A stretch of DNA of 64,000 nt, taken from NCBI GenBank assembly GCA_016234935.1, contig JACRNL010000006.1, forward strand, positions 1-64,000. Reading direction: 5' to 3'. The translations under genes and the position numbers were made by a program. The notes under the pieces are model-generated. The model made no database searches, was not told the origin of the DNA, and saw only the letters and a list, made by a program, of their open reading frames with translations. Position 1 is the first letter of the stretch. Every line of letters starts with the position of its first letter. This document shows, one piece after another, positions 120-44,442 of the stretch. This stretch comes from Deltaproteobacteria bacterium. Lineage in GTDB: Bacteria; Desulfobacterota; GWC2-55-46.

Positions 120-1036
120 TCAACAGAGGGGTTCACCCCACGCTATTGTAACCATTTTGTAACCGTCTTGAACATTGTGATATTCTGTAACCTTCCCGGA
201 AGCCTTCCTTAGGTCGTCTTCGTTGACTATGTTGTGCCTTTCAAAGACGCTTCGTGTCTTGTGGCCCGATACCATCATGGCAACACGCTCATGGACTCCG
301 GCCCTAACCATATTTCTAACCGCTGTTCTTCTGAAGTCGTGAAAAATTTTACCTGCAAGCCCTGTCTCTTTCAGCGCCTTTGCCCATGCGCCCCTGAAGT
401 CCATTATGCGTTCTCCTTTCTCTCCGAAGAATACAAAGTGGCATTTTGAATACTTGCTATCCCTTTTAATGTCTTCTGGAGGCGCATGGCTTCAAGTAAT
501 TCTCCTTCCATGTAAATAACTCTTGACTCCCCGTTCTTCGTGTCTTCGGCCTTTAGGGTAATCTTGCCTTCTCTCAGATCAACATGTGGCCGCTGAAGAG
601 AAAGAATCTCCTCTTTTCTCATCCCAGTAATATGATACATCCTCTTTAGAGCCGAAAGCTCGCGGTTGATCGTCCCGTTTTCCGCCCCTTCAGCTTGCCT
701 ATGTAGAATATACATCCTTATCCTGTCCGTGTTTATGTCTATGGCCTTTACGCCCTCAAAAAAAGCTTAAGGTGCTTGACGCTCCGCTCTGCCCTGTCCG
801 GTAGACTTCTTGTCGTTTATCCTGTAATCGTTCAGAAAGTCCTCAGCAAGTTCGTCAAATATTACTCTCTCCACTCGTAGACCTGTAAACCTGTTTTCGG
901 CTATCTGACCTTCACGGAGCTTAAGAAACCTCTTTGCATCGCTCTCCTTAATAGAGTGCATACTTTCATAATAGGCCTTTCCTGCCCGATAATACTTTAT
1001 CCGGAAAGTAGCCCGTCTTTTGTAGATGCTGCCCAT
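120..1036 (-). pseudogene. Decayed tyrosine recombinase (phage-type integrase), two frameshifts
   Basis: Three consecutive minus-strand frames together give one integrase. Bases 1036-767 hold an arm-type N-terminus (MGSIYKRRATFRIKYY). Bases 715-404 hold the core-binding part and the first catalytic arginine (TGMRKEEILSLQ). Bases 404-120 hold the HDFRR box and the SGHKTRS motif. Reading across the joins restores family-like sequence: the phrase SVKHLKLFFEGVKAIDIN spans the first break near 785-800, and [16 protein letters not shown] the second near 450. The nucleophilic tyrosine is also lost, as the usual RYNIV reads RHNIV. The region looks more AT-rich than fabI. It is a dead remnant of a mobile element; no attachment site or adjacent tRNA is visible, and the partner end may lie before base 1. 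Confidence 0.85.
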
Positions 1037-3424: not shown

Positions 3425-3583
3425 AGACTGCTCAAATCTTCCCATTGCAATAATAAAGACGCAATGGGAACCCAGCCAGATGCAAGGCGTCGAGGAGTGA
3501 GGAACGAGGCGCACTTTGTTGTGCGCCGCAGTGACGAACGACGAAGACAACGCCGCAGATGGGACTTTTTCAGCAGCCTGCTA
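3425..3583. repeat. Family D dispersed element, copy 1 (with internal insertion)
   Basis: Shares with the copies at 26.5, 27.3, 37.9 and 57.8 kb the core GATGCAAGGCGTCGAGGAGT and the end GATGGGACTTTTTCAGCAGC. The termini are inverted repeats (GCTGCTCAAA against TTTCAGCAGC). This copy has a small extra hairpin, CCCATTG / CAATGGG, near 3441-3468 that the others lack. It fills the gap between the EndoQ-like gene and the Usp gene, and ends nine bases before the latter's start. Confidence 0.85.
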
Positions 3584-3591
3584 AATACCAA

Positions 3592-4782
3592 ATGTATAAA
3601 AAGATACTCATCTGTCTCGACAACTCCGATTACTCCACCGCGGCCATTGACATCGCCCTTAACATAGGGCGCGCGTCGAATGCGTCCGTCACCGGCTGCC
3701 ACGTCTACGCGGCGCGGCTTCACGGCGCGCGCTTTGGCCAGATGGAAGAGGGCCTGCCGGCGAGATACCAGGACGAAAGGGAATTGGCGCGCCAGCGCGG
3801 CCTGCATTCAAGCCTTATCGAGCGCGGCCTGCGCGTTATCTCCGGCTCCTACATGTCCCCTCTGGAGGAAAAGGCGAAGGCCTTTGACATAAAACCCGTT
3901 TGCGTTCACAGGGAGGGGAAAAACTACGAAGAGATAATTAAAGAGGCGGATGAAGGCGGATACGACCTCCTTGTAATGGGCGCCTTGGGCCTTGGCAGGA
4001 CAGACGCGAGCAGGATCGGCTCCGTAGCCGAGAGGGCGGCGCGAAAGGCGGACTGCGACATCCTTCTGGTCAGAGATACGGTCTTTACGCGCCCTTCAGA
4101 CGGTAATATCGTCGCCGCGATAGACGGCAGCCCGAACTCCTTCGGCGCGCTTAAATGCGCCCTCTTTCTGTCCGCGGCATTCGGCCTTAAAGCCGGCGCA
4201 GTAAGCGCCTTTGACCCTGACTTTCACTACGCGGCCTTCAGGAGCATCGCCAATGTCCTGACGGATGAAGCCGCGAGGCTTTTCAAGTTCAAGGAACAGG
4301 AGATGCTTCACAGCGAGATAATAGACAAGGGCCTGCAAAGGATATATCAAAACCATCTTGACGCAGCCGGCGCATTTGCAAACCGGGAAGGCCGGAGCCT
4401 TTCGGCAACGCTTCTTTCAGGCAAGCCCTTTAACGAGATAATCAAATACGTTGAAAAAACCGCGCCCTTCATCCTCGCGCTCGGCAGGACAGGCGTCCAC
4501 GCGGGCGAGGGACTTGACATCGGCAGCACGACGGAGAACTGCCTGCGCGAAGCGCCTTGCAACGTACTGATCTCCAGACGTGAATTCACGCCTGAGACTT
4601 CGGCCCGGTCTTCGTCCGGCCCGGTCTGGACCGAAGAGGCCGAAGAGATACTGCTGCGCATCCCTCCCATCGCGCGCGCCGTGGTAAAAGGCATAGTCAA
4701 CGACGCCGCTAAAAAAGCGGGCGCGGTTGAAGTAACCGCCTCTTTCATGCGCAGGGTAAGAAGCTCCCTCGGAGAATTTTAA
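3592..4782 (+). CDS. Tandem universal stress protein with C-terminal PCP_red-like domain
   Basis: A 396-residue protein with two Usp domains. Domain 1 (about 1-165) starts KKILICLDNSDYS and ends with the nucleotide-binding GALGLGRTDASRIGSVAE. Domain 2 (about 172-340) starts GNIVAAIDGSPNS and has a weaker GRTGVHAGEGLDIGSTTE. The tail (about 345-390) has the pattern W-T-x2-A-E ... IPPIARAVVK ... VTASFM, matching the PCP_red domain known from the end of protochlorophyllide reductase ChlB. The following radical SAM gene carries the same type of tail, and the genes overlap by one base (TAATG). The ATG at 3592 is preferred because an upstream in-frame ATG at 3559 lies inside a dispersed repeat. Its role is unknown; shared tails suggest the two proteins act together. 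Confidence 0.88.
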   Translation: MYKKILICLDNSDYSTAAIDIALNIGRASNASVTGCHVYAARLHGARFGQMEEGLPARYQDERELARQRGLHSSLIERGLRVISGSYMSPLEEKAKAFDIKPVCVHREGKNYEEIIKEADEGGYDLLVMGALGLGRTDASRIGSVAERAARKADCDILLVRDTVFTRPSDGNIVAAIDGSPNSFGALKCALFLSAAFGLKAGAVSAFDPDFHYAAFRSIANVLTDEAARLFKFKEQEMLHSEIIDKGLQRIYQNHLDAAGAFANREGRSLSATLLSGKPFNEIIKYVEKTAPFILALGRTGVHAGEGLDIGSTTENCLREAPCNVLISRREFTPETSARSSSGPVWTEEAEEILLRIPPIARAVVKGIVNDAAKKAGAVEVTASFMRRVRSSLGEF

Positions 4783-6035
4783 TGAACGCCGCGCCTCCGG
4801 CATTGCCATTTCTTATTTCATGGAATCTGACAAGACGCTGCAACCTGAAGTGCGCGCACTGCTATCTCGACTCTGCCGGGATGGCGGGCGCTGACAATCT
4901 TTCCACGGATGAAGCCCTTCGTTTCGTTGACGAAATCGCGTCTTTAAACCCGCGCGCAATGCTTATCCTCACCGGCGGAGAGCCGCTTGTCCGGACCGAC
5001 CTCTTCGAGATAGCCTCCCGCGCCTCATCGCGCGGACTGATGGTAGTTCTCGGCACGAACGGCACGCTCATGAACGGCGCCGTTGCAAAGCGGCTGATAG
5101 AAAGCGGCATAAAAGGCGCGGGCATAAGCCTTGATTCCGCTTCTCCCCTTTTTCACGACCGCTTCAGGGGTGTTGACAACGCATGGGACAACGCCGTGCG
5201 CGCGGCGGATATCCTTCGCGCGCACGGCGTTGACTTTCAACTGCAATTTACCGTAACCAGGGGAAATAAAGAAGAACTGCCGCGGATAATCGAACTGGCC
5301 GCCCAAAAGGGCGCGCGGGCTGTAAACGTATTTTTCATGGTCTGCACCGGCCGGGGGCAGGAGATGACCGACCTTGGGCCGGAAGATTACGAGGCCGCGC
5401 TCTCCTATCTCGCAGAGGCTGAAGATGAATGGAGGGGAAGGCTGATCGTCCGCGCGCGCTGCGCGCCGCATTTTTTGAGGATAGCCGGACAGACTGACCC
5501 TGAAGGCCCGCTCCATAAAGGCGCTGCGTCAGGCTGCATTGCGGCGTCCTCTTATCTGCGCATATCTCCTGAAGGCTTTGTCACCCCGTGTCCTTACATC
5601 CCGCATAACGCGAAAAGCCCCAACCTCAAAGACATATCCCTGCGGGAGATATGGGAGACTGACGAGACATTCCTTTCCCTCAGAAGCCCGTCGTTAAAGG
5701 GCAGATGCGCGCGGTGTGATTGGGAAAAGCTCTGCGGCGGCTGCAGGGCGCGCGCGTTTGCTCATTCAGGCGACCTGATGGCAGAAGACCCGTGGTGCTC
5801 ATACGACCCTGTAAAGACAAAGACTGTGAAGGGAAAAAATTCGAACGACGCGCCCGTCTGGACGTCTGACGCTGAAAAGCGGCTTGAGGGCGCGCCTTTT
5901 TTTCTTCGCTCCATGATAAAGGCAGGGCTTGAACGGTACGCAAAGGCAAAAGGCTTACGCGAAATAACGCCGGAGATGATGAAGGAGCTGAGAGAGAAGG
6001 TCTCGCTGCCAAAGGAAGGACATGGGCGCGGATAA
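4782..6035 (+). CDS. Radical SAM/SPASM protein with PCP_red-like tail (AhbC/AhbD/NirJ-like)
   Basis: A 417-residue radical SAM enzyme. The SAM-binding 4Fe-4S cluster cysteines are C20, C24 and C27 in CNLKCAHC, followed by a glycine-rich ILTGGEP motif. A C-terminal SPASM region has further cysteines (SGCIAAS, TPCPYIP, CARCDWEKLCGGC). Residues from about 365 (VWTSDAEKRLEGAPFFLR, then ITPEMM) form a PCP_red-like domain. Radical SAM/SPASM proteins of this subgroup include those making heme d1 and heme by the siroheme route, so a tetrapyrrole substrate is a reasonable guess supported by the adjacent heme-protein operon; peptide maturation is the alternative. It is translationally coupled to the preceding Usp gene and overlaps the next small gene by 14 bases. 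Confidence 0.88.
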   Translation: MNAAPPALPFLISWNLTRRCNLKCAHCYLDSAGMAGADNLSTDEALRFVDEIASLNPRAMLILTGGEPLVRTDLFEIASRASSRGLMVVLGTNGTLMNGAVAKRLIESGIKGAGISLDSASPLFHDRFRGVDNAWDNAVRAADILRAHGVDFQLQFTVTRGNKEELPRIIELAAQKGARAVNVFFMVCTGRGQEMTDLGPEDYEAALSYLAEAEDEWRGRLIVRARCAPHFLRIAGQTDPEGPLHKGAASGCIAASSYLRISPEGFVTPCPYIPHNAKSPNLKDISLREIWETDETFLSLRSPSLKGRCARCDWEKLCGGCRARAFAHSGDLMAEDPWCSYDPVKTKTVKGKNSNDAPVWTSDAEKRLEGAPFFLRSMIKAGLERYAKAKGLREITPEMMKELREKVSLPKEGHGRG

Positions 6036-6219
6036 GGAAAACGTAAAACCTAAAAGAGGCGCAGGGCGGCAGTTCTTCGGCTGCGTGCTTTTGTCCCTCG
6101 CTATCCTCAACGGCGCGCTCGCAGTCAAGGGCGGGGCCGCCCCGGATGCCTTTGTCTATCCGCTCGCGGCGGCCGGCGCCGCCTTCCTCATAAGCGGGCT
6201 TGCCGCTTCGAGGCAATAA
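6022..6219 (+). CDS. Small membrane protein, unknown function
   Basis: A 65-residue protein with a basic N-terminus (KENVKPKRGAGR) and two hydrophobic stretches, at about 18-34 and 43-60. That suggests a small hairpin integral membrane protein. Its start overlaps the end of the radical SAM gene by 14 bases, which implies co-transcription and coupling with the Usp and radical SAM genes. No family is recognised. It converges on the triheme cytochrome gene, whose stop lies 13 bases away on the other strand. Confidence 0.6.
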   Translation: MGADKENVKPKRGAGRQFFGCVLLSLAILNGALAVKGGAAPDAFVYPLAAAGAAFLISGLAASRQ

Positions 6220-6232
6220 CGCCTTAAAATAT

Positions 6233-8479
6233 CTAACCGCCCCGCACGCTCCTTAACAGCAGCAACTCTCCGAGGAATACAAAGACAGCCGCGCCAAACG
6301 GCCAGAGCAAAGGCCCGAACCACGAATAGCCACCGGCGCCCTTTTCAGGCATGAGCGCAAGCCACTGCCATGTCGTCATGACGTGGCGCGCCCCCCTCTC
6401 GCCGTTGGAGCCGTCCCACGCCGCAAAGGCAACGGGGATGAAGCTGCCCGCCTCAAGGCGCGCATCATTGCCGGCATCTTCGCTTAGCGCGCGCTTCATC
6501 ACCACGCGCCAAACGCCCCTGTCGTAAACGCCGTATGCCTCCGGGCGCGCGCCTTGTTCATCCACGGGCTTTATGTTGAAGCCCTTTGCCTTTAAAATCC
6601 GCGCGGTCTGGCCGCTCTTCCACAGATAAATATTCACCGGCACGTTGGGCTGTCCCATGCCGAAGTGCGGCCTGCCGGCTCCGGGGGTTTCATTGTATTT
6701 TTCCGGAAACTCAACTGCCACGGCGTCTTCAAAGAGCTCCCCTTCGGCCATCCCCGCGGACTTCGCGTCTCCGGGTATGCTGCGAGTGGGGTCGTCCCAC
6801 TCAAGAAGGAGCGCGGCCTCCCTGCCGTTATATAGCGCCTTTACGGAGATGGAATCAAGCGTCGGCTTGAAGAGCCTGTCACCCGCGATTATCTGCGGGG
6901 CGAAAAGGAAGCTCGCGTGCCGGGCGAGCGCCCAGGCGGCGTCATCGGGCTTATCCGGCAGCCGGCCTGCCACGCGCACCGCCTTTATTACACCGTCCGC
7001 ACCCGGCCTTTTGTCAGGTTCATTTAATGAGGCCGCGTAGTTGGCCACATCCCACCGCTCGGCGCCGCTCAGCATCTTCCTGCTCTTTGGGTCGGCAAAA
7101 GACGGCATTTGAGTGCCGTGTATGCCGGCGGTTATCCGCGTGTAAATCCCCTCGGCGGTATCGCCGGCCCTGAAGGTCCAGCCCTTTGTCAGATTTCTTG
7201 GCCATGTCCTTTGGCCCCAGTCATCTTTGAGTTTTTTCGCGGCGTCCCCCCTGCCCGCCTCTCCGTGGCATTCAGCGCACCTGTCTGAAAATAAGTTCCT
7301 GCCGCGCTCCAAGCCGTCTTTGTCAGGCGCCGCGCGACCCGACAGGTCAATCGGCGGCTTTTTTGCGTCTTCCATTTTGCCGAAGGTCTTTATATAGGAG
7401 CTGACGGCACGTATGTCGTCATTGCCAAGCACATCGCCCCAGCCGGGCATGGACGTGCCGCTCATGCCTTTATCTATCATATTGTAAAGGTCGCCGTCCG
7501 ACGGAGAAGGCTCGTCAAACGGCGTCGTCTTCCATTTAAAAACCCCCCACGTGAAGTCGCGCGGCGCAGGGTTTAAAAATTCGGCCGCAGGGCCGTTTCC
7601 AGCTCCGTCCTTGCCGTGGCACCACCAGCAGCGTCTTTCATAAATATCTTTGCCCCTTGCAGCCGCGCTTTTTTCATCGGCTATGGCTTCTTCAATCAGG
7701 CCGCCGCGCCGGGCGAACTCGGAGCGCGACAGGCGCGGCGAGACGCCGGCGTAATCGTACAGAAAGAGTATCGTCCGCCAGAGCTCGTCTTCATTTAAGC
7801 TGTTTTCCCACGCGGGCATCGCCGAACTCTGCGGGGCGGCCTCCTTAGGCAGGCCCGGCCCGCCTTTAACCAGGCGCCAGAATACATATGACTCCTTCAG
7901 CTGGGCGATGGTATCCTGACCGGTGAATGGAAGCGGCGGCGGGCTGAAGGAGCCTGCGTAATGGCCCCTTCCGTCGAGCTTCGCGCCGTGGCAGAAAAAA
8001 CAGTTCTTGAAGTAAATGACGCCGCCCTCCTTCACAAGCGCCCGAAACCTCTCAGGTTCATTTTTTTCAAGGGCGCGAAGCGGGTTTTCAACTTCAGCCA
8101 TGTTGAAATTTTTACCGTACGCGGCAAACGCCGCCGGAGGCGCGGGGTGGACAGTCCTTAATTCCATCGGCGCTTCAATGCCAGGATTTACGACGGCATA
8201 GGCGCAAAAGGCCGCTATTACCGGGACCACGGCAAAAACAATATTACGCAAAAACTTTTTGGACGGCTCTTTAAGCAGGGCGGCCAAAGGAGAAACAAGC
8301 TCCCCCGCACCCTCGTCCGTTATCGTCATGACGAGGAGCGTCATCACCATCGCAAAGAGCATGTATAACGTCATGAGGCTTACAGGAATGGGCCTGGCAA
8401 GCAGCCATCCCGGCGCGCTGAACAGGACATATGCGGCTATGACGGCCAATGCGAATTTAAGGAGCGCCGGAATCTTCAT
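6233..8479 (-). CDS. Membrane-anchored triheme cytochrome c with ethylbenzene-dehydrogenase-like heme domain
   Basis: A 748-residue electron carrier. The first 100 residues hold three hydrophobic segments (about 6-28, 33-52, 79-98) that anchor it in the inner membrane. Three c-type heme motifs follow: CFFCH (160-164), CWWCH (284-288) and CAECH (401-405), each with a downstream methionine (SAMPAW, TSMPGW, TQMPSF) as likely axial ligand. From about 490 to 715 is a domain like the b-heme-binding gamma subunit of ethylbenzene/DMSO dehydrogenases (AALLLEWDDPT, FEDAVAVEFPE). A last membrane helix lies at about 722-745. It is downstream of a monoheme cytochrome and a bd-like oxidase subunit on the same strand, so it probably passes quinol-derived electrons within that complex. 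Confidence 0.88.
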   Translation of the reverse strand: MKIPALLKFALAVIAAYVLFSAPGWLLARPIPVSLMTLYMLFAMVMTLLVMTITDEGAGELVSPLAALLKEPSKKFLRNIVFAVVPVIAAFCAYAVVNPGIEAPMELRTVHPAPPAAFAAYGKNFNMAEVENPLRALEKNEPERFRALVKEGGVIYFKNCFFCHGAKLDGRGHYAGSFSPPPLPFTGQDTIAQLKESYVFWRLVKGGPGLPKEAAPQSSAMPAWENSLNEDELWRTILFLYDYAGVSPRLSRSEFARRGGLIEEAIADEKSAAARGKDIYERRCWWCHGKDGAGNGPAAEFLNPAPRDFTWGVFKWKTTPFDEPSPSDGDLYNMIDKGMSGTSMPGWGDVLGNDDIRAVSSYIKTFGKMEDAKKPPIDLSGRAAPDKDGLERGRNLFSDRCAECHGEAGRGDAAKKLKDDWGQRTWPRNLTKGWTFRAGDTAEGIYTRITAGIHGTQMPSFADPKSRKMLSGAERWDVANYAASLNEPDKRPGADGVIKAVRVAGRLPDKPDDAAWALARHASFLFAPQIIAGDRLFKPTLDSISVKALYNGREAALLLEWDDPTRSIPGDAKSAGMAEGELFEDAVAVEFPEKYNETPGAGRPHFGMGQPNVPVNIYLWKSGQTARILKAKGFNIKPVDEQGARPEAYGVYDRGVWRVVMKRALSEDAGNDARLEAGSFIPVAFAAWDGSNGERGARHVMTTWQWLALMPEKGAGGYSWFGPLLWPFGAAVFVFLGELLLLRSVRGG

Positions 8480-8539
8480 GCGTAAGTGGTTTCAACCTCG
8501 GCCCCCGTCCGTGCCGGACAGAAGGATAATTAAAAAACA

Positions 8540-8565
8540 GGTCATGACGATAAGTCAACATGACC
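8540..8565. other. Inverted repeat between two cytochrome genes
   Basis: Arms GGTCATG and CATGACC flank a 12-base loop in the 94-base gap between the monoheme and triheme cytochrome genes. No T run follows on the minus strand, so it is more likely an mRNA hairpin that sets relative expression or stability than a terminator. Confidence 0.35.
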
Positions 8566-8573
8566 CCTGAAAA

Positions 8574-9095
8574 TTATTTGGAAGCAGCCTCTTTACCCGG
8601 CGCGATGACCGTCACCGGAACGCCGGCCCTTTTCTGAAGAAATGCCGTCACAGCCTTTATTTCCACGTCGCCGAGGCCGATGGCGCCGCTTGAGACGTCC
8701 GGCATGGGGCTTGCCGTGTCGTTCGTGCCAGCCACCCCGTATCCGGCCACCACGAAAGCGGACGGCCTGACCATTGATTCGTAGATATACTCTTCTGCGT
8801 TGGCGGCGCCGCCTTTGTAGCGTCTGTCCTTTATCCTCTCAGCGGCCCTTACGGCGATATCGTCAAGCAGCGGGGCCCTGCCGCCCGTGGGGTTATGGCA
8901 CAGGGCGCAGGCGCCCTTGCCGCCAAAAACCTTTTCTCCCAGCAAGACAAGCTCATCCTCGGACGCCGGAGGCCGGGCAGCGCTGTCTTCTTCATGGCTT
9001 TCGGTGGGGATGGACGGGACGTAGACAACCGCAAGCAGAGTGTATACGCCTATGACAACGAGGCCGAAGACCGCCATTTTCAGAAAATTATTCAT
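8574..9095 (-). CDS. Monoheme cytochrome c, membrane anchored
   Basis: A 173-residue protein with an N-terminal hydrophobic anchor (about 6-28), an acidic linker, and one class I cytochrome domain. The heme site is CALCH in GACALCHNPTGG, and SPMPDVSSG supplies the likely axial methionine. Its start overlaps the end of the bd-like oxidase gene by eight bases, showing translational coupling. It is probably the periplasmic electron exit or entry subunit of that complex. The C-terminus EAASK is short and unremarkable. Confidence 0.88.
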   Translation of the reverse strand: MNNFLKMAVFGLVVIGVYTLLAVVYVPSIPTESHEEDSAARPPASEDELVLLGEKVFGGKGACALCHNPTGGRAPLLDDIAVRAAERIKDRRYKGGAANAEEYIYESMVRPSAFVVAGYGVAGTNDTASPMPDVSSGAIGLGDVEIKAVTAFLQKRAGVPVTVIAPGKEAASK

Positions 9096-10935
9096 GACCG
9101 TTGTCTTTGCCGCCGGTAAGGCGGCTCAGCCAGAAGATGAAGATTATCACCGCCATGAAGATCACCGTGCCGCTGGAGACGACCTTCGCGGCGTAGCCTA
9201 TCGCCGGAGTGAATGCGTCCGGCGAGCCGTCTTTCATTATTGAAAACACATGCCACCTGCCGCGTATGGCTGAGCGCACGTAGCCCATCAGCCCCATAAG
9301 CCATGTGAACGAAACGGCAAGCAGAAACAGCGCGTACTGGCTCCTGGCGGGCATCTTCCCCCACTCAAACGGCCCCGATGAGACCGAGTTTTTAAAGATG
9401 CGCGATTCGATAATCACCGAAACCGCAATTACCGAAATGGTCGTCGCCACCTGCGCGGCCGAGGAAGACACCTTGTAAACGGTGTTCGTAAAGTAGCCGT
9501 AATAAACGCCCAGAAAAACGATGTTCACGACGCCCGCGGCAAAGAGCGCGGCCTCGGCGGCATCGCCGGTTTTCGCCCATTTGACGACGGACGTCTTTCC
9601 GGCCCTGCGGTAAAGGAGAAAGCTCAGATAGGTGAATATCAGCATGATGTTCACCGCCGTATTTTTCGCGGGCATAAGGCCGAGCGGGCCGAGGAGGGGG
9701 TGGTAGGGCCCGCCGAGGGCCTTCATCTCCGATGGTCTCAGTATCAGCGTGTGCGGGGTGAACCAGACGAGAAAGCAGGCGAAAAGGACGAAGGCTATGT
9801 ACTTAACGTATTTCAGATACCTCTGGCCGCCGGGGCTTCGAAGCATCCCGCACCAGAGGTAGTAGTTCGCCGAAAGGAAGAGAGCGCCGATAATGACCGC
9901 CTGTATGATAAAGAGCCACCCGAACGACCCTCCCATGAGGGTTATCCCCATCTGCTGGCTGTAGCCGTATATTTCCGCGGTGAGCCAGTATCCTGCGAAC
10001 GGCAGAGGCAGAAGAGCGGCGATGGATATGAAGCTCGCCGTGTATCCCATCCAGTCGTAGCGCGCCCGTTCCTTTTTCGTGCGCGCGCTTAGAAAGCTGT
10101 ATGCCGCATAGGCCCCGACAATGGACGCGCCGTAGGAGACGTTCGCGATAAACCTATGGACGTTCATCGGCATCCAGAGACGGTTTTGCACCGCGTGCCA
10201 GACGTTGCCGTCAAAGACGCCCGCCGGGTCCACGCCCGACGGAGACATCATGAAGGTCGCCCACGCGTTGGCGATGAACATCAGCGCCGTGCCGGACAGG
10301 TTCAAAAGAAGGCCGACGCCGAGGTGCAGCAACTTAAGATCGCCTGACTTCATCGCGTGCCAGCCGTAGTAGTAAATATACAGACACGCGCTCTCAACTA
10401 AAAAGAGTCCCGCGTATATAAGCATGGAGCCGCCGAAGATTGCGGTCAGGTAGCTTAAAAGGCCGGGATAAAAGACGATAAGGCTGAAAAGGAACAGACC
10501 GCCGGTAACGGCGGTTATGGAATAGGCCGTAAGGCTGACGCGTATGAATTCGTAGGCCATCCGGTCGTAGCGCCCGTCCTTTCTGACGATGCCCGCAAAC
10601 TCTATGATAAAGACGAATATAGGAACCGCCAGCACAAATGCCGCAAACCACAGGTGCATCTGCGCCGCCAGCCATACGGCAAGTCTTGGGTTAACGCCGT
10701 TCATCTGCGGGTAATCCCCTGCCTTCAGCCTCTTTGCGGAGGGAAAGGCAAAGGCAGGCTTCACGCCGCCCTCGGCCGACGCCTGCGCGTCTACGGAGTA
10801 ATCAAAGACAGGCCCGGCCCCTTGAAGGGGTTCGGCCCCTTGAAGGGGTTCGCCCCCTGCATGGGACGGCAAAAGAGGCAGGAACAAAAAGACAAAGAGT
10901 AAAACGAAAGATAAAAAGGCGGAGCTTTTCTTCAT
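9088..10935 (-). CDS. Cytochrome bd-like quinol oxidase subunit I (divergent)
   Basis: A 615-residue polytopic membrane protein distantly like CydA. It has an apparent signal peptide ending near SHAGG, then about a dozen hydrophobic helices. A histidine opens the first core helix (AAQMHLWFAAFVLAVPIF), and a second lies in NRLWMPMNVHRFIANV; both are placed like the heme ligands of CydA. It is longer than CydA (usually about 450-520). Reduced or altered bd-like proteins of this kind, grouped with c-type cytochromes, are known from Nitrospira genomes; whether it reduces oxygen is not shown. No cydB lies nearby. A family A palindrome is translated as EPLQGAEPLQGAG just after the signal peptide. 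The start is directly after the stop of a 41-residue upstream gene. Confidence 0.8.
   Translation of the reverse strand: MKKSSAFLSFVLLFVFLFLPLLPSHAGGEPLQGAEPLQGAGPVFDYSVDAQASAEGGVKPAFAFPSAKRLKAGDYPQMNGVNPRLAVWLAAQMHLWFAAFVLAVPIFVFIIEFAGIVRKDGRYDRMAYEFIRVSLTAYSITAVTGGLFLFSLIVFYPGLLSYLTAIFGGSMLIYAGLFLVESACLYIYYYGWHAMKSGDLKLLHLGVGLLLNLSGTALMFIANAWATFMMSPSGVDPAGVFDGNVWHAVQNRLWMPMNVHRFIANVSYGASIVGAYAAYSFLSARTKKERARYDWMGYTASFISIAALLPLPFAGYWLTAEIYGYSQQMGITLMGGSFGWLFIIQAVIIGALFLSANYYLWCGMLRSPGGQRYLKYVKYIAFVLFACFLVWFTPHTLILRPSEMKALGGPYHPLLGPLGLMPAKNTAVNIMLIFTYLSFLLYRRAGKTSVVKWAKTGDAAEAALFAAGVVNIVFLGVYYGYFTNTVYKVSSSAAQVATTISVIAVSVIIESRIFKNSVSSGPFEWGKMPARSQYALFLLAVSFTWLMGLMGYVRSAIRGRWHVFSIMKDGSPDAFTPAIGYAAKVVSSGTVIFMAVIIFIFWLSRLTGGKDNGHE
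10818..10860. repeat. Family A palindrome, in frame in the bd-like oxidase gene
   Basis: Two head-to-tail copies of CCCCTTGAAGGGGTTCG followed by CCCCCTGC. On the minus strand they are read without a frame change as GEPLQGAEPLQGAG, at residues about 28-41, right after the predicted signal-peptide cleavage site. This is the tandem form of the element seen elsewhere in the window. Confidence 0.85.
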
Positions 10936-11061
10936 TTAACCTCTGAAGATAAACGAAAGTCCCAGCGCGTTCAGGATAAGGACGTCCATTATCAGGAACA
11001 GGGCCAGAAAAACGGCAACGGCCGCGATAAATGAGACGGCAAACCTCACAGGCAACTCCAT
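10936..11061 (-). CDS. 41-residue single-helix membrane protein coupled to the bd-like oxidase
   Basis: A short frame coding a peptide with the basic start MELPVRFA, one hydrophobic helix (VSFIAAVAVFLALFLIMDVL) and the end FIFRG. Its TAA stop is followed immediately by the ATG of the oxidase gene, so translation would be coupled. Tiny single-helix subunits are known for bd oxidases (CydX, CydS) and for cbb3 (CcoQ), which makes a subunit role plausible. No sequence identity to those is claimed. There is no strong Shine-Dalgarno sequence upstream, which lowers confidence. Confidence 0.55.
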   Translation of the reverse strand: MELPVRFAVSFIAAVAVFLALFLIMDVLILNALGLSFIFRG

Positions 11062-11085: not shown

Positions 11086-11114
11086 TTGACAAACCGGGGC
11101 ATATGGCATATTCT
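11086..11114 (+). promoter_or_regulatory. Sigma-70-type promoter for the hydrogenase-maturation operon
   Basis: A perfect TTGACA at 11086-11091, a 17-base spacer and TATTCT at 11109-11114. Transcription would begin near 11121, reading into the 36-residue frame at 11122 and then the maturation protease gene. It is divergent from the respiratory operon. Confidence 0.6.
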
Positions 11115-11121
11115 TTTTGAC

Positions 11122-11232
11122 ATGATAAGTATCGGAAAATTCAAGGCCGGAACCGTAGATATATTAATATTTTCAGGCGCGTTTGTAAACCTTGCAGTGA
11201 TAGCCCTGATACTCGTAAAATACCTCTTCTGA
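11122..11232 (+). CDS. 36-residue membrane peptide, possibly leaderless
   Basis: The frame begins ATG ATA AGT and encodes MISIGKFKAGTVDILIF, then a hydrophobic stretch ending LVKYLF. The ATG lies at or one base past the transcription start predicted from the promoter at 11086-11114, so the mRNA may be leaderless; there is no Shine-Dalgarno sequence. It ends 15 bases before the TTG start of the protease gene. The function is unknown and the frame could be chance, but its hydrophobic pattern and position argue for a real small gene. Confidence 0.4.
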   Translation: MISIGKFKAGTVDILIFSGAFVNLAVIALILVKYLF

Positions 11233-11247: not shown

Positions 11248-11793
11248 TTGAAAACCGTGACCCTTGGAAAAAGGATAGCAGGAAAAAAGGTCCTCGTGCT
11301 CGGCATAGGCAACATCCTCATGACGGACGAGGGGCTTGGCGTGAGGGCGCTTGAGGCCGTCAGGGACGGCTATTGCCTGCCGCCGGGCGTCCGGTGCGTT
11401 GACGGCGGCACGATGGGGCTTGCCCTGCTTGAGTACATAAAAGAGTTTCCATCCGTCATAATCATAGACGCGCTGAAGTCCGGCTCCAGACCCGGAACTA
11501 TTTTAAGAATATGCGGCAAAGACATTCCCGCCTTTGCCGGTCTCCGTTCATCGGCGCACGGCCTCGGCGTAAAGGAGCTGATAACCCTTGCTGAATTCGA
11601 AGGGGTTGAACCCCCTGAGGGGGCTCAGCCCCTTCAAGGGGCATGCCCGAACGTTACCGTCACCGGCATGGAGCCAAAGGACGTCTCACCAGGGCTTGTG
11701 CTGACGCCGCTTATAAAAAAACGGCTTCCTTCGCTGATTAAGACGATTATAAAGGAGCTTCGAAGGCTCGGCGTTATTCTGGAGGAAAAATAA
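11248..11793 (+). CDS. Hydrogenase maturation protease (HyaD/HybD/HoxW family)
   Basis: A 181-residue endopeptidase expected to trim the C-terminus of a NiFe hydrogenase large subunit after nickel insertion. The family start motif is GIGNILMTDEGLG (19-31). The metal-sensing residues known from HybD correspond to Glu28, Asp74 and His104. A family A palindrome is translated as GVEPPEGAQPLQGAC (119-133), inserted just before the conserved VTVTGMEP strand. The start codon is TTG at 11248, or GTG three codons later; no ATG is available. HypA follows four bases after the stop. No hydrogenase structural gene is in the window. Confidence 0.9.
   Translation: MKTVTLGKRIAGKKVLVLGIGNILMTDEGLGVRALEAVRDGYCLPPGVRCVDGGTMGLALLEYIKEFPSVIIIDALKSGSRPGTILRICGKDIPAFAGLRSSAHGLGVKELITLAEFEGVEPPEGAQPLQGACPNVTVTGMEPKDVSPGLVLTPLIKKRLPSLIKTIIKELRRLGVILEEK
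11601..11641. repeat. Family A palindrome, in frame in the hydrogenase protease gene
   Basis: Two linked palindromes, GGGGTTGAACCCC and CTGAGGGGGCTCAG, followed by CCCCTTCAAGGGG. It is read as EGVEPPEGAQPLQGA and is the most complete copy in the window. The insertion falls between conserved segments of the protease. Confidence 0.85.
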
Positions 11794-16418: not shown

Positions 16419-17693
16419 TCAGGCAGGACGCCCGCCCGCCGTGAACACCGCAAAAGGCGCGCGCGCCCCCCGCTCCCCGATAGAGACATTCGAGGACGTG
16501 TTAAAACGTGCGAGGGCAGGCTTTCCGTGCTTTTTGCCGGCCTCTTTCGCGCCGTTTGACGAGACAATATCCAAAAGTCTCTTTCTTGCCGTCTCCACGG
16601 CCAACGCCCCGGCGTCCACGCCGAGCCAGCGCCTTCCCATCTTTTCGGCAACGGCAAGGGCCGTGCCGGAACCGGCAAAGGCGTCAAGGACGATATCTCC
16701 CTCTTTTGAAGACGCGGCAATTATGCGGGAAAGCAGGGCCTCCGGCTTTTGCGTGGGGTAGCCTGTCTTTTCGTTTGACGGCATGTGCATGGCGTCGCCT
16801 ATGTCGTCCCAGACGTCGCCTACGAGCTTATCCTCGACCAGACAGCCGCCGTCTTCACGCAGGAAATATTTTATGCGGATATTGCCGTTTTTAGTGGTGT
16901 GGATGCGCCCTTCCCTTGAAAGCGTCTCGATGCTTTTATCCGTGTAGTCCCCCCTTGGAGAGGTCTTGAACCACCGCCCCTCGGCGTCCTGTCTGAAGCC
17001 TGATGCGCCCTTTTTAACCCTTTTTTCGATGAGCATCCGGTTAAAGACGTGTCTATCCCCCTTTTTATACCAGAGGATGATATCGTGGTTTCTGGAGAAC
17101 TGCCCTGATACGGCCTTCGCGCCCCTGCCGCCGTAGTGCCAGATGATGTCGTTCAGAAAGTTCTCCTCGCCAAATATTTCGTCCATTAACGCCTTTACGT
17201 AGTGCGCCTTTTTCCAGTCAAGGTGCGCGTAAATAGACCCGTCTTCCGCAAGCAGTTCGCGGAGCAGTAAAAGCCTCTTTCTCATGAACTCTATGAAGGC
17301 CGAGCCTGTTATCCTGTCGTCATAGGCCTTCCTGCCGCCCTTTGTCTTAAACCCCAAATTCGTTGAGAACGGCGGGTCTATATAAACAAGCCTCACGCCG
17401 CTTGAGCCGTCAGCGTTCCGTATCTTCCCCTCCACTTTCATATTAAGAAGGGTCTTTAAAACGCCGAGGTTGTCGCCCTCCACGAGCATGTTCTGCCACG
17501 CCCCCTGAAGGGGTTCAACCGCCCGCCCTCCGCAGAGACGCCCGCCATGAACAGGGGACTCCGAAACCAGCCTGAGCCGCGCAGCCTTCGTATGCGCGAT
17601 GACATCCTCCGGCAATGTTTTGCCGGCATACTGTATTTCATATTCCCGTTTCAACAATACCGGCTCTCTCTTTTTCATGCGGGGGACGGTCAT
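16419..17693 (-). CDS. Adenine/cytosine-N4-type DNA methyltransferase, likely frameshifted at the C-terminus
   Basis: A beta-class DNA methyltransferase, with the catalytic motif YIDPPFSTN before the SAM-binding DAFAGSGTALAVAEKMG (near residue 346). YPTQKPEALLSRII is also characteristic. No restriction enzyme is adjacent, so it is an orphan. A family A palindrome is read as AVEPLQGAW near residue 60, just before NMLVEGDNL. The frame closes at 16419 in GRPA, but a second frame beginning in the same GC run continues to a stop at 16289-16291 with plausible protein (GRFTFSMGEICEGALIF and so on). A one-base indel near 16425-16450 probably truncates an originally 465-residue protein, unless it is a sequencing error. 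Confidence 0.85.
   Translation of the reverse strand: MTVPRMKKREPVLLKREYEIQYAGKTLPEDVIAHTKAARLRLVSESPVHGGRLCGGRAVEPLQGAWQNMLVEGDNLGVLKTLLNMKVEGKIRNADGSSGVRLVYIDPPFSTNLGFKTKGGRKAYDDRITGSAFIEFMRKRLLLLRELLAEDGSIYAHLDWKKAHYVKALMDEIFGEENFLNDIIWHYGGRGAKAVSGQFSRNHDIILWYKKGDRHVFNRMLIEKRVKKGASGFRQDAEGRWFKTSPRGDYTDKSIETLSREGRIHTTKNGNIRIKYFLREDGGCLVEDKLVGDVWDDIGDAMHMPSNEKTGYPTQKPEALLSRIIAASSKEGDIVLDAFAGSGTALAVAEKMGRRWLGVDAGALAVETARKRLLDIVSSNGAKEAGKKHGKPALARFNTSSNVSIGERGARAPFAVFTAGGRPA
17501..17520. repeat. Family A palindrome, in frame in the methyltransferase gene
   Basis: The short form, CCCCCTGAAGGGGTTCAACC. On the minus strand it gives A-V-E-P-L-Q-G-A in the same reading phase as in the protease and oxidase genes. 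It lies in the linker before the substrate-binding NMLVEGDNL segment. Confidence 0.8.
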
Positions 17694-44407: not shown

Positions 44408-44442
44408 TGAGCCCCCTCAGGGGGTTGAACCCCTTCAAGGGG
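44408..44442. repeat. Family A palindrome, intergenic, upstream of the REC-PilZ gene
   Basis: Contains CTGAGCCCCCTCAG and GGGGTTGAACCCC with CCTTCAAGGGG, nearly the same arrangement as in the hydrogenase protease gene. It lies 46 bases before the REC-PilZ start codon and could affect its leader. The surrounding gap 44443-44597 has no gene. Confidence 0.85.

Follow-up and report, generated by a model that had tools for sequence, protein, structure and literature searches.

Genes with the cytochrome bd fold are easily counted as terminal oxidases in metagenomes, and the locus described here raises the question of what such a gene may encode when CydB is missing and c-type cytochromes stand beside it. 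The window (the whole 64,000-nucleotide stretch analyzed, from a Deltaproteobacteria bacterium) holds a CydA-like gene for which the original prediction proposed an operon with a tiny upstream frame, a monoheme cytochrome c, and a 748-residue multiheme protein, and a function as either a quinol:cytochrome c oxidoreductase or a novel terminal complex, as for the bd-like proteins of Nitrospira. All four frames, here called x, A, C, and E, are real, with the exact minus-strand coordinates given in Table 1, and their association is not due to chance: C follows A in 82/82 distinct loci and the A-C-E order is kept in 81/82 (loci with enough flank, duplicates removed), the one locus without E being a sequence that ends 1.5 kb after A.

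The x-A-C-E operon and its neighbors

We read x-A-C-E as one operon, with x as its first gene followed by A, C, and E, on the basis of gene spacing: the stop codon of x is followed directly by the start codon of A, the A and C frames share 8 nt, and a gap of 94 nt precedes E. As predicted, C is a monoheme cytochrome, with one N-terminal helix and a single CxxCH; its match to Pfam Cytochrom_C (0.0034) is below the cutoff of that model. The three c hemes and the heme-b domain claimed for E are also borne out, in that CxxCH motifs occur at residues 160, 284, and 401, three stretches match Pfam Cytochrome_CBB3, and an ethylbenzene-dehydrogenase-type heme-b domain (EB_dh) is recognized at 1.1e-20, together with a TIGR03477 match (1.6e-32) that is below the cutoff of that model. 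The protein is a fusion of two parts: E1 consists of TM helices and one heme c, and E2, of the alt_NxrC type, consists of two hemes c, the heme-b domain, and a C-terminal TM helix. Heme b in E is probably bound by M608 and H699, which align with the residues that we take to be the ligands of EbdC, Met and Lys.

Table 1. Features of the operon and its surroundings in the window
Feature	Coordinates	Strand	Evidence
x, 41-aa single-TM microprotein, first operon gene	10936..11061	-	HMM match 4.4e-8
A, CydA-like membrane subunit, 615 aa	9088..10935	-	PF01654 6.6e-18; AF2 model; Z to CydA; heme ligands
C, membrane-anchored monoheme cytochrome c, 173 aa	8574..9095	-	CALCH at residue 63
E, E1-E2 fusion, 748 aa	6233..8479	-	Pfam CBB3 x3 + EB_dh
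z, 36-aa single-TM microprotein, divergent from operon	11122..11232	+	HMM match 7.1e-9
Weak promoter-like site TTGACA-17-TATTCT, before z	11086..11114	+	10/12 matches
Radical-SAM/SPASM protein ending in a PCP_red domain, convergent with E	4782..6035	+	Pfam
Double universal-stress (Usp) protein with C-terminal PCP_red	3559..4782	+	Pfam; PCP_red 31.3 bits, just below cutoff
65-aa hydrophobic/membrane protein, overlaps radical-SAM gene, convergent with E	6022..6219	+	homologues in 11 loci

The 41-residue frame abutting the oxidase start is conserved, and it is accompanied by a second tiny protein, z, on the opposite strand, which was absent from the first reading of the window. HMMs built from a few upstream frames and run on 30,539 small ORFs from all six frames (hits at E ≤ 0.01) define three families, x, y, and z, and all hits (x, 103/103; y, 73/73; z, 93/93) map upstream of an A gene, at a distance of at most 1.2 kb. 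Among loci with enough upstream sequence, x is found in 100/105 (∼95%), z in 93/105, and y in 71/105, counts that include duplicate contig copies; the distinct DNA copies of x, y, and z number 90, 69, and 80. Every x hit is directly upstream of A, and z is divergent in 65 cases and codirectional in 28; relatives of z were also recovered independently through a protein search. In all three families, sequence differences are enriched at third codon positions, a pattern typical of coding sequence. A chance ORF can be eliminated as the source of the 41-residue frame by this excess together with the conservation of its HMM family. The HMM search of small ORFs found x and z in the window and no y, and three Nitrospira-like loci have an x-like frame whose E-value (0.011–0.043) just misses the threshold. 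Representatives of the three families gave nothing relevant in Pfam, where families so short are easily missed. In their single helix, their length of ∼30–40 residues, and their position beside a CydA-like gene, x and z resemble CydX/CydS/CydH, the single-helix subunits that stabilize or gate cytochrome bd (PMC8951039), and they may likewise serve as structural helices. The families x, y, and z, which are new here, are likely missing parts of the complex and are thus parts to include in its purification and in structure or complex prediction.

In the region, −35/−10-like sites are no more numerous than expected by chance; across loci, promoter-like sites scoring ≥9 precede z more often than they do in shuffled sequence, and the site in Table 1 is the sole candidate near z in the window. 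Of 90 loci, 7, all labeled Alphaproteobacteria, carry exact FNR-type boxes upstream of A, about eleven times the background rate, suggesting low-oxygen control of these loci. The boxes, TTGATNNNNATCAA, lie at −358 to −516 in L043, L044, L053, L055, L063, L074, and L077. The window contains no exact match, and its two-mismatch matches are at chance level.

Several neighbors were also considered. The 65-aa protein, without a Pfam match, is a possible accessory of the complex. On the other side of the operon, HycI and HypA are kept in closer loci only, and their linkage looks incidental. At the left edge of the window (120–1036, minus strand), adjacent frames resemble, by eye from their translations, a broken phage-type integrase, with recombinase-like motifs split over three frames.

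The PCP_red domain, which belongs to a chlorophyll-precursor enzyme, closes both of the larger proteins encoded convergently with the operon. For the radical-SAM/SPASM protein, the nearest NCBIfam models are those of NirJ (NirJ2, 311 bits) and AhbD (305 bits), enzymes that trim heme side chains (PMC10452713, PMC12505453); both scores are below the cutoffs of 500, and PCP_red is an addition relative to both. A second radical-SAM protein in the host genome is 37% identical to the PCP_red one. In 28/51 distinct loci the radical-SAM gene is no more than 9.5 kb from A, and for the Usp gene the figure is 32/51. Across 40 relatives, a close radical-SAM orthologue is present in 28/33 genomes with A and 1/7 without it, with a p of 7e-4 that is optimistic because the genomes are related and some are incomplete; PCP_red occurs in 1/14 control genomes only, a cyanobacterium. 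The origin of the domain, taken with the heme trimming by NirJ and AhbD, suggested to us that this protein is a reasonable, if speculative, candidate for a heme-modifying or maturation enzyme that may make, supply, or insert a modified heme, and hence a testable candidate cofactor-making enzyme. A literature search on PCP_red, and on bd-like proteins of Gallionella, returned nothing relevant. We note that a flavin amine-oxidase-type protein, of a family that includes protoporphyrinogen oxidase, and a DUF2478 protein lie beside the radical-SAM and Usp genes in L050 (16507–19782) and L038 (16933–19620) and are possibly further parts of a tetrapyrrole pathway.

Fold and heme ligands of subunit A

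The Pfam Cyt_bd_oxida_I domain covers only the N-terminal half of A, and we therefore turned to a structural model. The AF2 model (pLDDT 84.7, pTM 0.84) has a signal helix and ∼13 TM helices (∼14 counting the signal helix), and its residues 71–615 match all ten listed CydA chains with Z of 30.6–34.7 and rmsd of 3.1–3.9 over 341–358 residues. In the model, A has a complete CydA fold over its whole core. The next family is alternative complex III, through its chain F (Z 20–21), a complex that, like the one proposed here, pairs a membrane core with c-heme subunits; however, this fold match is far weaker than that to CydA, and the operon encodes no ActB-like iron–sulfur subunit.

The heme-ligand alignment that the original prediction proposed shows a partial loss. 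H94, E181, and R84 of A, the counterparts of E. coli H19, E107, and R9, are kept in almost all of 126 homologues. A profile–profile alignment (E 1e-10 to 4e-13) pairs H186 with the invariant H260, R448 with R558, and W451 with W561; MAFFT instead placed H186 on A264, one turn from H260, so the placement of H186 is uncertain. The profile–profile alignment leaves E445, M393, and the Q-loop unmatched, the quinol residues K252 and E257 are without a conserved counterpart in the A family, and E99 is replaced by an invariant Tyr174. In E. coli CydA, we take H19 to bind heme d, E445 to bind b595, and H186 and M393 to bind b558. With E445, M393, and the Q-loop unpartnered and E99 an invariant Tyr, the O2 site of A is altered, although H94, H260, E181, and R558 are kept. 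Other invariant or nearly invariant histidines (204, 395, 412, and 562) could be replacement ligands.

The claim that CydB is missing holds beyond the operon: a PF02322 search found none in the host genome and one in only 1/40 relatives, with control genomes positive. The complex thus shares with canonical CydAB the fold of subunit I (Z 31–35), the counterparts of H19, H186, E107, and R448, and the small single-helix proteins, and differs from it in the missing CydB, Q-loop, E445, and M393, in the Tyr at E99, and in its c-type partners. A bd oxidase that merely lacks CydB can be eliminated: two heme ligands and the Q-loop have gone too, and dedicated c-type partners are universal.

We also observed a short dispersed repeat, GAACCCCTTCAAGG and its variants, with 13 matches (≤2 mismatches) against 0.8 expected by chance, at 10820–10851 (in A), 11626–11639 (HycI gene), 17503–17516 (inside a methyltransferase-like gene), 44427–44440, and other sites. 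Within proteins the repeat inserts in-frame "EPLQGA"-like peptides, two of them in the N-terminal linker of A, and exact copies turned up solely in loci of the host genome.

Relatives and the Nitrospira cluster

Relatives of A are encoded in 209 stretches of the genome collection. The best 80 of these are mainly MAGs labeled Deltaproteobacteria and Alpha-, Beta-, and Gammaproteobacteria (with Gallionella and Ferrigenium among them), alongside a few Nitrospirota, and the A-C-E set spans several phyla; no homologue of A was found on plasmids. One copy is present in the host genome, and 33/40 relatives carry A. E is usually split into separate genes for a membrane-anchored, one-heme E1 and for an E2 with two hemes and the heme-b domain; among complete frames, the fusion is confined to the window and L174. 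In many relatives an additional small monoheme cytochrome, C′, is encoded between C and E1; the window does not have it. In a tree, the A protein of the window groups with those of host relatives, the neighboring clade holds the Pseudomonadota proteins, and Nitrospira-like proteins fall outside both. So does A2 (∼720 aa, 36–50% identical to A), the first member of a second, diverged A2-C2-E2 cassette that lies upstream of the first in L038 (1–8106), L048, L053, and ∼25 other proteobacterial loci; the heme-b domain of these cassettes seems to use R and M in place of M608 and H699.

Among 246 Nitrospirota genomes sampled, 123 have a match to A, and those of 4–5 Mb typically encode two homologues ∼5.4 kb apart. 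The first copy is 47–48% identical to A over its full length and is followed by C, C′, E1 (one heme), and E2 (two hemes and the heme-b domain). This arrangement is that of N. moscoviensis, where the cluster of bd-like_3 also encodes two c-type cytochromes and alt_NxrC_2, a protein with two heme motifs, and where bd-like_3 is duplicated a few genes off as bd-like_4 (PMC6606698). Clusters of this type also occur in Nitrospina and in strictly anaerobic anammox bacteria, and the bd-like_3-type protein has been described as CydA-like, with ∼14 helices and without a Q-loop, as in A (PMC3578206). From gene order, full-length identity, and the genome size of the Nitrospirota carriers, we take the window complex to be orthologous to bd-like_3/alt_NxrC_2. 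Neither outcome that would have refuted the original prediction was observed, since key heme ligands persist in A and the genes are linked nearly everywhere. The link to Nitrospira made in the original prediction is therefore strengthened, at the cost of novelty in kind: the complex itself is already known from Nitrospira, Nitrospina, and anammox bacteria, where it is uncharacterized, and the bd-like complexes of nitrite oxidizers are described as highly expressed and conserved, with no assigned function (PMC6606698, PMC3578206). The window holds a variant member, with a single cassette, fused E1 and E2, no C′, and no nitrite oxidoreductase (NXR) in the genome; the second CydA-like copy characterizes Nitrospira, not the complex as such. 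The proteins x and z are without description in the accounts of the Nitrospira cluster (PMC6606698, PMC3578206).

Possible functions of the complex

As read from the genes, the complex comprises a CydA-fold core that keeps at least two heme-ligand positions, a tethered cytochrome C, the E arm, and single-helix microproteins. The best explanation, to which we give about an even chance, is a quinone:cytochrome c oxidoreductase that exchanges electrons between periplasmic cytochromes c and quinone. The triheme-c and heme-b arm of E is predicted to face the periplasm, and electrons would be exchanged among high-potential soluble cytochromes, the c-hemes carried by E and C, and the b-hemes within A, which in turn would give electrons to the quinone pool or take them from it. 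The direction would be forward in this nitrate/O2-respiring host and reverse in lithotrophs, and the complex would not be a terminal oxidase. The orthology and gene order shared with the Nitrospira cluster, the CydA fold over the core, the altered O2 site, and the obligatory linkage of C and E are consistent with this function, as is the presence of the cluster in strictly anaerobic anammox bacteria; a role like that of alternative complex III has been proposed for the cluster (PMC3578206). The host also has COX1-family proteins and no ordinary bc1-type cytochrome b by a PF00033 search, in which the sole protein found is fused to Fer4 and FlpD domains; another system may thus feed cytochrome c. 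However, A occurs in genomes both with and without bc1-type cytochrome b, a quinone site is not recognizable in a protein that lacks the canonical Q-loop residues, and the retained H19, H186, and E107, central to cytochrome bd, would fit an oxidase.

An O2 reductase of the OR-N/OR-C type, which would draw electrons from cytochrome c via E and C and reduce O2 with high affinity at the H94 heme of A, is a possible but clearly less probable reading. The OR-N and OR-C families of the cytochrome bd superfamily, typical of Nitrospirota and Nitrospinota, are CydA relatives without a quinol site and with predicted cytochrome c partners, as in the window (PMC10839748, PMC12342949), and OR-N enzymes oxidize cytochrome c (PMC10839748). 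The CydA fold, the counterparts of H19, H186, E107, and R448, and the constant presence of c-type subunits agree with such an enzyme. Against it are the missing or replaced E445, M393, and E99, the orthologous cluster in anammox bacteria (PMC3578206), and the lack of a clear need, as a COX1-family match is present in 40/40 relatives examined (38 of them above the cutoff). Moreover, the terminal oxidase role in Nitrospira has been given to OR-N1/OR-N2 (PMC12342949) and bd-like_2 (PMC6606698).

The altered pocket could instead bind another small ligand of low-oxygen nitrogen metabolism, such as NO, which we consider improbable. The invariant Tyr at E99, the loss of E445, the NarGHI of the host, and the FNR-type boxes in some loci are compatible with this idea, and carriers among the best 80 of 209 stretches often come from oxygen-minimum zones and groundwater or are nitrate-dependent iron oxidizers; however, the argument is one of habitat correlation. 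Least probable of all is a membrane anchor or electron conduit for NXR, docking via the NxrC/EbdC-type heme-b domain of E, as the clusters shared with NXR in Nitrospira, Nitrospina, and Kuenenia might suggest (PMC3578206, PMC6606698). The host genome, of 2.15 Mb and listed as 100% complete, encodes NarGHI and a NarK-type transporter, and a search for the PF00384 molybdopterin family found NarG (above the narG cutoff), a QrcB-like protein, and NuoG and no NXR; many carrier lineages among the best 80 of 209 stretches are not known as nitrite oxidizers. With NarG but no NXR, this host rules out NXR anchoring as the general role.

These findings show that the bd-like_3-type complex is not tied to nitrite oxidation, being present here in a nitrate reducer without NXR. 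A quinone:cytochrome c oxidoreductase would be a bd-fold protein that does not reduce O2, which, if true, would alter metagenome annotation. In its boldest form, which we hold to be rather unlikely as a whole, A, C, E, and up to three microproteins would make up a further class of complex III, working between quinone and cytochrome c on a bd fold with a modified heme from the radical-SAM-PCP_red enzyme. Such a class would be common to nitrite oxidizers, anammox bacteria, iron oxidizers, and groundwater nitrate reducers.

We note, finally, that the genes for a COX1-family protein, an SCO1-type protein, and the Fer4/FlpD-fused cytochrome b lie side by side elsewhere in the host genome (L112, 5020–9380; host contig G000:C10), an unusual arrangement that is hinted at in several relatives too.
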